A stretch of 64,000 bases of DNA from Streptomyces sp. NBC_01298 (GTDB taxonomy: Bacteria; Actinomycetota; Actinomycetes; Streptomycetales; Streptomycetaceae): NCBI RefSeq assembly GCF_035978755.1, contig NZ_CP108414.1, forward strand, positions 3,410,001 through 3,474,000. The letters are read 5' to 3'. Both the position numbers and the translations under genes were made by a program. Under the pieces are notes generated by a model. That model was not told where the DNA came from, made no database searches, and saw only the letters and a program-made list of their open reading frames with translations. Below, piece by piece: positions 7,772-11,353 of this stretch; position 1 is the first letter of the stretch; every line of letters begins with the position of its first letter.

Positions 7772-8119
7772 TCAGAACGGCGGACCAGCAGCCCCGAAGT
7801 CCTCGCGCGTCTTGAGCTTGTGACACGGACGGCAGAGCGGCTGAACGTTCCCGTCCGTGTCCGTCCCACCCAACGCAAGCGGCTGTATGTGGTCCACGTC
7901 GATGTTCGACGCGAGGACATGCCGACCACAGCGCACGCACTTCCAGCGCCCCGACTTCCGGATGATCCGGCGGAGCCGAGCGGCAGCCGAGTTGCCCAGT
8001 GCGAGAACCTCCCGACGCTTCCGCCGAGCCCGTACCGCAGGACGCTCCTCGTAAGCCCGGTAGTGGAGCTCACAGCGGCCCCGATGGCTCGCAGGCTCCG
8101 GACAGTCGATACAGCGCAT
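7772..8119 (-). CDS. HNH endonuclease, second phage copy
   Basis: A 115-residue protein starting MRCIDCPEPASHRGRC. It contains CVRCG, the core IDVDHIQPLALGGTDTDGNVQPLC split by an H-N-H pattern (DHIQPL, then GN, then CHKLK), and a Pro-Phe C-terminus like the first HNH protein. AAGGGGGTCGC precedes the ATG. The gene is enclosed by tRNA-like elements on the same strand, which is a common location for free-standing HNH homing nucleases, so it could act in mobility and not in packaging. The exact role is not shown by the sequence. Confidence 0.85.
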   Translation of the reverse strand: MRCIDCPEPASHRGRCELHYRAYEERPAVRARRKRREVLALGNSAAARLRRIIRKSGRWKCVRCGRHVLASNIDVDHIQPLALGGTDTDGNVQPLCRPCHKLKTREDFGAAGPPF

Positions 8120-8136
8120 GCGACCCCCTTGTCATT

Positions 8137-8325
8137 GCTCCTGGTGCTCGTTGTTGCGTGCCCGCCCAGGGACTTGAACCCCGGAACTCTGCGGCCGATA
8201 TCCCCGAGTCGGGGCCGGTACCGCGCACCTCTCACCGTTGGGTCAGCGGGCCGTAAGGGTGCTACCAGGTAGCGTCAGTTTTGGTTGACAAGCTCTGCGC
8301 TCGTCGTGCTCCTGGTGCTCGTTGT
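8137..8325 (-). repeat. 18-bp direct repeat downstream of two tRNA-like elements
   Basis: GCTCCTGGTGCTCGTTGT occurs at 8137-8154 and again at 8308-8325. On the minus strand each copy lies shortly 3' of a tRNA-like element (elements 2 and 3). The second-transcribed copy also precedes the second HNH gene. The identical flanks suggest duplication of a tRNA-plus-spacer unit or a processing signal. Confidence 0.6.
8160..8251 (-). tRNA. tRNA-like element 2 (anticodon unassigned, irregular)
   Basis: On the minus strand GCCCGCT at the 5' end pairs with GGCGGGC at the 3' end (7 of 7, one G-U), discriminator A. The T-arm is perfect: CGGGG TTCAAGT CCCTG. The D-region has a GG doublet and a short stem. 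The middle does not fold as a normal anticodon arm. It contains CCCCGACTCGGGG, a tight hairpin, inside a larger GC-rich helix. Length 92 nt would suit a class II tRNA. Acceptor and T-arm are so good that chance is unlikely, but function as a decoding tRNA is uncertain. Confidence 0.5.
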
Positions 8326-8365
8326 CGATCGGCGTAAGCCCTGGTCGGACCGTGCCGCAGTGCGT

Positions 8366-8444
8366 GTTCCCGACTGGATTCGAACCAGCATCGACCGCCG
8401 GATTGTTGTAAGACGGCCGTTCGCAACCAATGAACTGCGGGGAC
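8366..8444 (-). tRNA. tRNA-like element 3 (possible UAC anticodon, enlarged loop)
   Basis: On the minus strand the acceptor GTCCCCG/CGGGAAC has one mismatch and the discriminator is A. The D-arm GTTC/GAAC with loop ATTGGTTGC is canonical, as is the T-arm GCTGG TTCGAAT CCAGT. The anticodon stem GCCG/CGGC encloses an oversized loop that contains CTTACAA, which would place UAC (Val) at 34-36 of a normal 7-nt loop, followed by extra bases CAATC. It is the most tRNA-like of the three. The extra bases are the odd part. Confidence 0.55.
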
Positions 8445-8698
8445 GGGTTGCCCTCGCCGGCGAACCGGTCCAGACGAGTTGGGGACCACACGCGCTTACA
8501 ACCCCTTTCGGCGCACCCCGGAGGGTGGGTTACTCATGGGCGGTGTGGTCCCCGCTCGCGCTGCCACACGTCGACTCCTGGCCACCCCGGTAACGCGGGG
8601 TGCGGTGTAGCACGGGCAACGCTGTATCCGAGAGCGGGCACTCAGTCCGCCCGGTTCCCCCGTTGGGTGGGTGCGCGGTAGTCCCGCTCTCGGAAGTA

Positions 8699-8918
8699 GT
8701 GGAGGGCGAAGGTTTCCCGCGTCCGTCTGGACTGTTCGGTCCCTTGCTTCCCCAGTAGTGGAGGGCGAAGGTTTCCAGTGCCGCTCGGACACTCGAACCG
8801 CTCGCTCTCTCCCCAGCTGTGGAGGGCGAAGGTTTCCCGCGTCCATCCGGACGAGCGGGCCGTTCACTCTCTCCCCACAGTGGAGGGCGGAGGTTTCCCG
8901 CGTCCGAAGAGGTGACGC
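8699..8918 (-). repeat. Array of four ~60-bp direct repeats with conserved hairpins
   Basis: The core GTGGAGGGCGAAGGTTTCCC (plus strand) starts at 8699, 8758 (last bases differ), 8819 and 8880 (one change), giving spacings of 59, 61 and 61 bp. The sequence between cores is itself related from unit to unit, so whole units were duplicated. Beside each core the minus strand can form a short hairpin: GTCC/GGAC at 8721-8732, GUGUC/GGCAC at 8778-8792, CGTCC/GGACG at 8840-8853, GCGTC/GACGC at 8900-8918. The arms differ but stay paired, partly through a U-G pair only possible in minus-strand RNA. Spacings are not multiples of three. Function unknown. Confidence 0.8.
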
Positions 8919-8938
8919 GGTGCCGAAGGAGACCCTGG

Positions 8939-8983
8939 TTCTCTTTCTTTCTATTTTTTCTATGTGTTTCTAAAAAATGGTTG
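8939..8983. other. AT-rich tract in the prophage accessory strip
   Basis: A 45-bp stretch of T-rich then A-rich sequence (CTTTCTTTCTATTTTTTC, then TTTCTAAAAAATGG) in otherwise GC-rich DNA. It lies 5', in the minus-strand sense, of the repeat array. Between it and 9090 I see no gene. It could be a promoter or protein-binding region. No clean -35/-10 pair is seen. Confidence 0.4.
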
Positions 8984-9093
8984 AACTCAACACCCCAACA
9001 CCAACCGCTTCGCTGTAGAGCCGAGAGCTCCAAGCCCGAGGGCAGCCAGCGAGGGGGCACGAGGGGCCCTGTACGCCCGTCTGCGGACATGGG

Positions 9094-9146
9094 AAAGCCC
9101 CGGCGGTCCCGAGGGATGCCGGGGCGGTCCCGAGGGATGCCGGGGC
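9094..9146 (-). terminator. Terminator with duplicated stem (21-bp tandem repeat)
   Basis: GGTCCCGAGGGATGCCGGGGC-type units of 21 bp occur in tandem at 9105-9125 and 9126-9146. On the minus strand either GCCCCGGC copy can pair with the following GCCGGGGC, which leads into a short U-tract (AAAG on the plus strand). It ends the 73-residue coiled-coil gene. Confidence 0.65.
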
Positions 9147-9162
9147 GGTGCGGCTCGGCTGA

Positions 9163-9384
9163 TTACTCGGTGCCCTCCGTGGCCAGACTCATGCGGGCGG
9201 CTCGCAGGTCTCGATTCACTTCTTCGATCTTCTTGTCACATGTTTTAATTTCATCCTCTAGCCTAGCCACCTCTGCGGAATTTCCGCGTCGGCTTTCGTT
9301 CTTCAGCGCATCGGCTAGCTCTTTCCTCTCATGCTGGAGGGTTGAGAGCCTATGGGTGGCTTCTGCGACTTTTTCGTCGCTCAT
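9163..9384 (-). CDS. Small coiled-coil phage protein, 73 aa
   Basis: The ATG at 9384 follows AAAGGGGAACAA. The product starts MSDEKVAEATHRLSTLQHE and is almost wholly a charged heptad coiled coil (EVARLEDEIKTCDKKIEEV), ending ATEGTE. It lies between the recombinase and the repeat array with its own terminator downstream. Its location next to the recombinase would fit an accessory or directionality factor, but nothing in the sequence proves that. The frame continues upstream without a ribosome site, so the shorter start is preferred. Confidence 0.65.
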   Translation of the reverse strand: MSDEKVAEATHRLSTLQHERKELADALKNESRRGNSAEVARLEDEIKTCDKKIEEVNRDLRAARMSLATEGTE

Positions 9385-9476
9385 TTGTTCCCCTTTGAGG
9401 CGTAGGACTGTATAGGTCGCCAAGATCATAGTCAGCGCGAATGTGGCGTGTGGCGGTTCTGCGCAAGTTGGCAGCA

Positions 9477-9510
9477 GAAAGCCCCGGCGGTCCGAAGGGA
9501 CTACCGGGGC
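9477..9510 (-). terminator. Intrinsic terminator upstream of the coiled-coil gene
   Basis: On the minus strand GCCCCGGTAGTCC pairs with GGACCGCCGGGGC (12 of 13 including one G-U) around CTTC, followed by UUUC. It stands between the recombinase terminator and the 73-residue gene, insulating that gene. The rest of 9385-9626 holds no gene that I can see. Confidence 0.65.
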
Positions 9511-9623
9511 GAGGCGGGCTGGTCGTACTGCTTCCAGGACGAACCTGTAAGGCACCAGCCCTAGCCCGCACACCCATGTCGGCGCGGGGTGCGAAGAGCG
9601 TACCGGGCCGCGAGGGGCACGCA

Positions 9624-9659
9624 GAAAGCCCCGGATGATCACGGGGGCCGTCCGGGGCT
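9624..9659 (-). terminator. Terminator of the serine recombinase gene
   Basis: AGCCCCGGA and TCCGGGGCT pair over 9 bp on the minus strand around a 15-nt loop and are followed by UUCUGC. It lies 20 nt past the recombinase stop. Confidence 0.65.
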
Positions 9660-9679: not shown

Positions 9680-11353
9680 CTAGGCGGCTTGCTCGAACCC
9701 GTCTGCGTCGGGCTCGGCACCTTCCGGGGTGGCCCATGCGATGGTGACGCGCTTCATCCCGTCGAAGCGCCGTCCGCGTCCCGGAGACTTCGTCACGGTC
9801 ACGGTGTCTATGGCGAGTCCGAGTAGGTCGCGCTGCATCCGTGCGTCGGCAGTGTTCCAGTACGCCTCACCCCTGCCGCTCAGCAGGAACGAGAGGGACA
9901 CGGGACCGCTGTTGCCGACCAGCTCGGCGAGGGCCGTTTCAGCCTTGCTGATCCGTGCTTCGGCAGCGTTCTTGTGGGGGATGCGGTATCGGGCGGAGCG
10001 GCCCGTATAGAAGTCCGCAGCGTCGTCCGCGTGGAACTTGTCGAGCTTGGCTTGTGCGGCTTTCAGCTCGGCGCGTGCGTCCCTGATGACCTGTGTCTCC
10101 TCGGGCCGCGTAATGGCCTGCCAACGCTCGGCCACGGCAACCAACAGCGGGTCCTCATCGTCGGTGACTGCGAGCCGCTCGGACCACGTTTGCACCACGT
10201 ACTTTTCGACGGCCTTGCGGGTGACGAACGCGGGATCGGCGCACGCTTCGGCTCCGTCGCCGTAGCGGGTGCAGGCGTACGAGTCCCCTTCCAACGTCAT
10301 GGCGCTGCCGCAGGATGCACACCGCATGCGGCTTGTCAGCGCTCGGACAGCGCGGCCCGGAGTGGGGGCAGCCTTGCTGATGGTCTGGTTCCCGGACAGC
10401 ACACGGCGGGCACGCTCGGCGAGCTCGGACGGGATCATGTGCGGCAGCGTTTCGTCCGTGACGACACGAATCCGCTCGCCCTGTGCGTCAAGGAAGGGCA
10501 CGCGGTCGCGGTGAGCCTTCCCGCCGGGGCAGTGCGTGAGCCACCCCTCATATACCGGATGGATGATGATCGCTCGGACCGCATCGGCACGCCACGGAAC
10601 ACCCGTTCCGGTCCGCAGACCCTCGCTGTTGAGTTGGCGGGTCAGCGCGCGGGACGACATGCCCTCACTGATGGCCTTGAACACGCGCTGGACGATCTCC
10701 CACGGGGTTACTTCCCGCCTGTCGGCAACGGTGCACATGTACGGGGTGAGATCCGGGACGAGCTTCCGCGTACCGGGGACCGCGACCAACCCGAACGGCG
10801 CCTTAGACAGCCAACGGCCCTCGGTACGCTGCCGGGATTTGGTGCCGCGCACGTTGTGAGAAAGGCGCTGCGAGTACTCGCGTGCGTTCTCGGCCCGGTC
10901 GATGATCCATCGGCGGTCCCGCTCGTCCATCGAGTCGAGACGCTCGTAGTCGAAGATCACGCGTGCCTTGCCGAGGATCGGTACTACCGCTTCGGCGCCC
11001 TTGCGGGAAAATCGGTCGAGCGCGTAGCACCACAGCGCGGGTACCTCGCCGGCGAGCACGGCAGACATGGCCTGGTCGTACTTAGGGCGCTGCACATCCG
11101 ACCAGGCGGACAGGTTCTCTTTCCACACCTTCCGCACGCAATACCCGTGCTCGTCTGCCCATGCCCGCCCACGGTCCTCCTGCGCCCGGATGGACAGTGC
11201 ACGCTCGCCCTCGCGGACGATCTTTGACTTACGGAGGAGGAGGTCTACATACGGTCGTCCGTGGCACGGGCACAGCCCGTCAGTAGTCTGGTTCATGCCC
11301 TGTGTGGAGGGCGAGAGGTTCCCGGAGAGACGTGCGAGGGTGCTCGTAGACAT
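9680..11353 (-). CDS. Large serine recombinase (phage integrase)
   Basis: A 557-residue site-specific recombinase. The resolvase domain has the catalytic serine in LLLRKSK (Ser43 from the first ATG) and the LDRFSRKG helix. A recombinase domain follows (residues about 190-310, with SRALTRQLNSEGLRTGTGVPW and YEGWL). A zinc ribbon has CASCG and a later Cys pair (ACTRY, EACADP), and a coiled-coil tail ends the protein. It is at the prophage edge as expected for an integrase. The start is uncertain. ATG 11353 has a moderate AAAGG site. An in-frame ATG at 11296 would remove 19 residues (ARLSGNLSPSTQG), and those are encoded by a copy of the repeat-array core, so the leader may not be translated. 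Confidence 0.9.
   Translation of the reverse strand: MSTSTLARLSGNLSPSTQGMNQTTDGLCPCHGRPYVDLLLRKSKIVREGERALSIRAQEDRGRAWADEHGYCVRKVWKENLSAWSDVQRPKYDQAMSAVLAGEVPALWCYALDRFSRKGAEAVVPILGKARVIFDYERLDSMDERDRRWIIDRAENAREYSQRLSHNVRGTKSRQRTEGRWLSKAPFGLVAVPGTRKLVPDLTPYMCTVADRREVTPWEIVQRVFKAISEGMSSRALTRQLNSEGLRTGTGVPWRADAVRAIIIHPVYEGWLTHCPGGKAHRDRVPFLDAQGERIRVVTDETLPHMIPSELAERARRVLSGNQTISKAAPTPGRAVRALTSRMRCASCGSAMTLEGDSYACTRYGDGAEACADPAFVTRKAVEKYVVQTWSERLAVTDDEDPLLVAVAERWQAITRPEETQVIRDARAELKAAQAKLDKFHADDAADFYTGRSARYRIPHKNAAEARISKAETALAELVGNSGPVSLSFLLSGRGEAYWNTADARMQRDLLGLAIDTVTVTKSPGRGRRFDGMKRVTIAWATPEGAEPDADGFEQAA
11304..11323 (-). repeat. Fifth copy of the repeat-array core at the recombinase 5' end
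   Basis: GTGGAGGGCGAGAGGTTCCC matches the array core (8699-8899) at 17 of 20 positions, same strand. It lies between the two candidate start codons of the recombinase (11353 and 11296). No clear hairpin is found next to it. Confidence 0.6.

Follow-up and report, generated by a model that had tools for sequence, protein, structure and literature searches.

A stacked array of phiC31-type core motifs in a Streptomyces prophage: putative phage-specific promoters in front of a structured RNA

Introduction

Why does a Streptomyces prophage stack four copies of a short motif in the gap behind its integrase gene, and what do these copies do? The question touches phiC31, a standard tool phage, and its relatives, in which the way the genes are switched on is, to our knowledge, poorly resolved. 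Ingham et al. are said to have found in 1993 that phiC31 has several phage-specific early promoters.

The locus lies in a window of 64,000 nucleotides (the whole stretch of DNA that was analysed) of Streptomyces sp. NBC_01298, contig NZ_CP108414.1, positions 3,410,001 to 3,474,000. An earlier note, made from the letters alone, had described repeats of about 60 bp flanked by hairpins of which the arms change but stay paired, had proposed a transcribed structured RNA or structured binding sites, and had named no described element with this layout. Using a combination of motif scans, shuffling tests, comparisons of relatives and folding predictions, we propose that the array probably consists of four tandem phage-specific promoters, standing in front of a structured RNA, one or more tRNAs, an HNH gene and probably the late genes.

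Results

Four cores behind the integrase gene

The array is made of four cores of about 20 bp, reading GTGGAGGGCGRAGGTTTCC on the plus strand and GGGAAACCTYCGCCCTCCAC on the minus strand, which start on the minus strand at 8899, 8838, 8777 and 8718 (spacing 61, 61 and 59); the unit at 8777 begins with TGG. The window holds five core matches with up to three mismatches, as compared to a mean of 0.03 in shuffled sequences, where five were reached in 0 of 100 shuffles. The four cores and spacings reported earlier are confirmed in this way, as is a fifth core at the recombinase start, which has three mismatches and lies inside the integrase ORF. The features concerned are as follows.

9680..11353, minus strand: serine integrase gene (int)
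11300..11323, minus strand: weaker core in the integrase ORF (match 11304-11322), three mismatches, 27 nt before an in-frame ATG
8911..9007, no strand: AT-rich stretch flanked by inverted repeats, before the array, origin-like
8876..8899, minus strand: array core 1, the first in the direction of transcription, putative promoter (motif scan)
8815..8838, minus strand: array core 2, putative promoter (motif scan)
8754..8777, minus strand: array core 3, beginning with TGG, putative promoter (motif scan)
8695..8718, minus strand: array core 4, adjoining the structured RNA, putative promoter (motif scan)
8687..8694, minus strand: predicted start of RNA made from core 4, at core bases 25-32; the stem of block 5 begins here

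Over the whole genome, two places beyond the array match the core with at most one mismatch, namely a second element, which has an array laid out in the same way, and genomic position 3391070, where one copy stands alone; 12 further places, the integrase copy included, have two or three mismatches. A scan with a position weight matrix (PWM) found only six copies in the prophage, those outside the array being in the leader of the sigma gene and in int.

The array was also considered as a CRISPR array and rejected as such: the stretches between the cores are partly alike (60-82%, families D2 and D4), and no CRISPR family reached the gathering score. In three relatives (L044, L050 and L060, from G346, G162 and G025, respectively), array units also occur farther upstream, before the AT-rich stretch preceding block 5, and in L044 the extra units are accompanied by another AT-rich stretch, which gives the impression of a duplicated module.

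A phiC31-like prophage and its relatives

On the minus strand, int is followed by a small ORF, a terminator-like hairpin, the AT-rich stretch, the array, a non-coding stretch, the HNH gene and then the terminase side (a second HNH-like gene, the small terminase, the large terminase and the portal). The prophage also carries consecutive genes for a D5-type primase, a family A polymerase and a sigma-region-2 protein, and a search with the sigma protein returned 27 phage records, all from Streptomyces phages, including phiC31 gp12, TG1 and phiBT1. The gene order of phiC31 is the same: primase, polymerase, gap and sigma, and later int, gap, tRNA, HNH and the end. Judged by its genes and their order, the prophage is phiC31-like.

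A 22-nt pattern taken from just 3' of the array has matches in 28 of 392 Streptomyces genomes (up to two mismatches). Eleven of them, our own included, were accepted, one looked decayed, and 16 were set aside because the AT run upstream and the CTGAGT downstream are absent (two of the 16, L038 and L051, were read). Further relatives were found in named genomes and viral contigs. The search of other Streptomyces prophages for the core, which the earlier note had suggested, yielded arrays in relatives and 15 int sites with a core.

In most relatives, and in Rowa, the array is preceded by an AT-rich stretch with inverted repeats of 12-26 nt (from about 11760 in L026 and from about 15010 in L033), which looks like a replication origin. 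The array could accordingly be regarded as part of such an origin, its repeats lying beside the AT-rich stretch, all the more as a small element in which neither primase nor terminase was detected (L010, see below) has kept the block with one mismatch. However, the core is also found by itself at sites that are not near the AT-rich stretch, namely in the sigma leader and in front of many genes, and we hold this origin function to be highly improbable.

The small element just mentioned (G000:C1, about 4188000-4194850; L010) carries int, the same array, two HNH genes and the major head protein; terminase, portal and primase were not found by tblastn in the stretches searched. It matches positions 8247-9646 of the window with one mismatch, and its int is only 84-99% identical (100-nt bins). 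It may be a satellite, or a decayed prophage, which has acquired the block of the prophage.

The location of the array, between int and the HNH and terminase genes, would also suit a terminase-binding (cos-side) site. This has next to no chance of being right: the core also occurs elsewhere in the genome, and the ends of the linear Rowa record fall between HNH/gp61 and terS, at a place equivalent to some 2 kb from the array, so that the array is not at cos.

Hairpins beside the cores

The short inverted repeats described earlier beside the cores do exist, including the one that relies on a U-G pair, but they do not amount to conserved hairpins. Among 40 array units from our own and related prophages, compared to dinucleotide shuffles, the mean folding z-score was −0.38 (sem 0.16) for the 30 nt beside the core, 0.09 (sem 0.13) for the core plus 12 nt, −0.51 (sem 0.20) for the stretch behind the core and −0.69 (sem 0.18) for the whole region from −30 to +45. 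The four units of the prophage itself are unremarkable (z −0.41, −1.27, 0.35 and −0.45), and well-folding units occur in a few relatives (z −2.0 to −2.8; G219b, G329a, L069b and G025b3). The array units thus fold at best slightly more than expected.

When the 5' and 3' halves of array units were exchanged, to test the hairpin that the 3' half of the core makes, no covariation appeared (z −1.2, 901/1000 swaps as good). The same test gave a z of 2.5 at the 15 int sites (11/1000 swaps as good) and of 1.9 at the three sigma sites (161/1000). As the unit hairpins are hardly above chance, the claim of compensatory pairing between their arms fails, and the folding and swap tests together indicate that the array is a sequence motif and not a row of conserved hairpins. 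By eye, the upstream hairpins of some relatives change on both sides (L069b versus G162a). From the proposal of a transcribed structured RNA or structured binding sites, we retain the minus strand, the repeated recognition sites and the involvement of a structured RNA, but not the hairpins of the units, whose z-scores are near chance.

A structured RNA, a tRNA and an HNH gene 3' of the array

The covariance analysis of homologues, negative for the array units (z −1.2), was positive just beside them: three covarying closed stems lie directly 3' of the array on the minus strand.

8627..8694, minus strand: block 5, closed stem of 8683-8694 with 8627-8638
8558..8622, minus strand: block 6, closed stem with covariation
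8481..8553, minus strand: block 7, closed stem of 8543-8553 with 8481-8491, with covariation
8365..8444, minus strand: tRNA (Rfam, 40.3 bits; ARAGORN makes no call)
7772..8119, minus strand: HNH endonuclease gene, downstream

In blocks 6 and 7, 97.6% of the cells are paired and there are 12 both-side pair changes versus 4.3 in shuffles, 0 of 500 of which reach 12. These values refer to 12 sequences, L042 and L045 being left out for lack of a clear end, and L063, L068, L070 and L075 differing there. The test of block 5 used nine of the 18 sequences, for the most part those lacking a bulge which the aligner had put in the wrong place. In these nine sequences, 91.0% of the cells are paired (86.3 in shuffles; 0/500 reach) and the covariation score is 0.184 (0.116 in shuffles; 0/500 reach), with only four both-side pair changes versus 2.8, a number reached by 70/500 shuffles. 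The outer pairs of block 5 vary and mostly still pair in the 18 sequences if one bulge is allowed. They extend further 5' than the conserved part of the stem, which, at the 13 loci with a pattern match, begins 30, 31, 35 or 36 nt downstream of the first base of the last core.

Blocks 5-7 match no Rfam family at gathering score, the tRNA being the only match at that level, and across 8100-9200, at E-values up to 5, nothing else came near the cut-off. A second stretch, at about 8158-8250 on the minus strand, has tRNA-like ends with an odd middle and is conserved in several relatives; neither ARAGORN nor Rfam reports a tRNA there.

The core precedes many genes in phiC31 and RemusLoopin

In phiC31, all 11 copies of the core with up to two mismatches (two matches on the plus strand and one on the minus strand, with three mismatches, being left out) are on the plus strand, and none is wholly inside a CDS. 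Ten of the 11 stand 20-70 nt before a gene start (at 39-67 nt), versus 0.062 at random, and the eleventh is 134 nt before a tRNA. In RemusLoopin (plus strand, up to three mismatches; two plus-strand and three minus-strand matches with four left out), 12 of the 13 copies are not wholly inside a CDS, nine are within 20-70 nt of a start, versus 0.069 at random, and two are exactly 27 nt before an annotated start codon. In both phages, then, many genes have the core ahead of them on the coding strand, usually at 39-67 nt.

In the prophage studied here, the motif likewise occurs on the coding strand at several places, namely the sigma leader (at −55), int (at −27) and the array, with no ORF directly behind the array cores. 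A copy before most early genes is found in phiC31, but not in our prophage with its six copies.

The 15 int copies in relatives of the prophage lie 27 nt before an ATG or GTG, and those of Samora, Euratis, Vash and Lilbooboo lie 26 nt before the start; no good int copy was found in the other 12 of the 16 isolated phages. Two PWM matches outside the arrays have no ATG at 27 nt (L023, 6568; L103, 18827). The int copies are in frame inside a longer ORF with a start and ribosome-binding site of its own, so that a product started from the core would be shorter and leaderless; they could also be kept as peptide. A single RNA start near base 28 of the core would explain both the 26/27-nt spacing in int and the distances of the block 5 stem. 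In L095 (18701-18853; G219), the region of the integrase start contains three cores, every one of them followed by an ATG at 27 nt, and by eye the integrase N-terminus has in-frame peptide repeats at these three cores.

Two observations bear on what the core is. First, the two conserved blocks within it are about 10 nt apart, which is closer than the usual −35/−10 spacing and speaks against promoters. Second, short, asymmetric and intergenic sites in one orientation, specific to a phage, are what one would also expect of DNA sites for a phage repressor or activator, similar to stoperators; a precedent in Streptomyces is phage R4, for which PMC10276819 describes a repressor-stoperator system. 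We nevertheless consider such sites very unlikely, judging from the positions of the motif: the narrow distances to the starts, including that of exactly 27 nt, fit a start site better, and phiC31 has separate, operator-like palindromes CTACTCACGTGAGTAG in its sigma gap. These palindromes (L123, about 2540-2780) share the gap with the sigma leader and are distinct from the core; we take them to be probably the repressor operators.

The sigma leader and the gap after int share the core within each phage

About 28 kb from the array, the sigma-gene leader contains the single genomic core at 3391070. For 16 isolated phages and three prophages, the 130 nt immediately preceding the sigma gene were matched against the gap behind int (Sycamore, AbbeyMikolon and duplicates being left out of the 27 sigma records; three of the 16 genomes with a sigma match were examined further). 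The best ungapped match between leader and gap had a mean of 17.0 with the phage's own gap, as compared to 11.2 with the gaps of other phages and 10.2 with its own gap reversed, and 0 of 20000 permutations reached the observed value, in a set of 19 phages that are not independent, since eight have one core type and three another. The phage's own gap ranked first in only 9 of 19 cases because relatives share a core.

The shared sequence is GGGAAACC..CGCCCTCCAC in our prophage, GGTCACCGACTCCCTT in the phiBT1/Samora/Vash group, GGGAATCCCCTCCGCTC in RemusLoopin, GGGCTTTAC..ACTCACTC in Shaeky and GCATTCGACTC in Rowa. The top leader-gap match of phiC31 is another 12-mer, and its core is visible as the shared 10-mer GGTTGCCGAC. 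Similarly, the int and sigma cores are closer to the array of their own phage than to other arrays (18 sites, z 4.0, p 2e-4), the own array being the best match for 8/15 int cores and 3/3 sigma cores; here the array cores of L024 and L025 were added by hand, and the int core of the second element of our genome was compared with the shared array. Read side by side, leader and array cores differ mostly in the middle. In sequence, the versions of the core differ between phage groups and are shared within each phage.

The sigma-leader core in a predicted hairpin over the ribosome-binding site

The sigma leader is strongly structured by prediction (z about −3.9 in 3/3 leaders), and its core is predicted to lie in the 5' half of a hairpin by which the read-through RNA would mask its ribosome-binding site. 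In that RNA, the site has a mean unpaired probability of 0.12 (19 phages), versus 0.35 when the upstream part is shuffled; the real value is below the shuffle mean in 19/19 phages, and only 11/19 leaders are individually at or below 5% of their shuffles. The control, 14 other core-preceded genes of phiC31 and RemusLoopin, has a mean of 0.36. With an RNA that begins at base 28, the site is predicted to be more open (0.51, higher in 19/19), but the controls also rise, to 0.60. A simple rule served to place the ribosome-binding site, which may be a few bases off in our own prophage. A start at the core could in this way release the sigma gene.

The core could also act as RNA: the array transcript would titrate an RNA-binding protein, or pair with the leader, and so control sigma translation. 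It would indeed repeat the 5' half of the hairpin in the sigma leader, on the same strand and of the same sequence within a phage, and both the strong structure of the leader and the position of the leader/array differences, mostly in the middle, agree with such a role. Yet the array units have no matching 3' arm, and the distances of the core from the many unrelated genes that follow it in phiC31 and RemusLoopin resemble those of promoters; we regard this RNA sponge as unlikely.

Discussion

By analogy with phiC31, whose core motif we tentatively equate with its phage-specific early promoters, the array suggests a stacked variant of a phiC31-type promoter motif. The likeness is in the position of the motif, on the coding strand before early genes at the 11 phiC31 places, one of them (40568) in the gap after int, where the array is here. 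The difference is in the array itself, of which the motif has another sequence and is stacked four times in that gap. The statement that no described element has this layout has to be put less strongly, since phiC31 has one copy of its own core there and others before its early genes; our literature searches returned no paper that we recognised as describing the core motif.

With tandem promoters as the preferred function, the RNA would start near base 28 of the core, and the array would drive the structured RNA (blocks 5-7), the tRNA or tRNAs, HNH and, further on, probably the late genes. The phage itself would code for the activator, which might be the sigma factor whose own leader carries the core. 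As the motif is specific to a phage group but shared within a phage, it offers a direct test of which protein recognises it, and the sigma-gene leader and the structured RNA beside the array are concrete objects for experiments.

The start-associated sequences of the Cluster K mycobacteriophages were another candidate. According to PMC3203893 they are, like the cores, short asymmetric repeats in one orientation near gene starts, with a fixed sequence GGGATAGGAGCCC at 3-7 nt from the start codon. The cores differ from them: they have another sequence, which changes between phage groups, and stand 27 or 39-67 nt from the start. We rejected this identity.

We further propose, tentatively and at less than even odds, that phiC31-like phages share a self-activating switch. 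The sigma gene would be silent in the read-through RNA, of which the ribosome-binding site is hidden, and would be opened only by the RNA from the promoter inside the hairpin, which lacks the 5' arm and could be translated. The same promoter, arrayed here, would make the undescribed structured RNA (blocks 5-7) that heads the tRNA/late transcript, and could also start a short leaderless integrase mRNA. Genes e and soc of phage T4 have a late promoter inside a hairpin that hides the ribosome-binding site. In both, as predicted for the sigma leader, the read-through RNA is silent and the promoter-started RNA is translatable; the phage and the promoter are unrelated, and here the action would be on the sigma gene itself.
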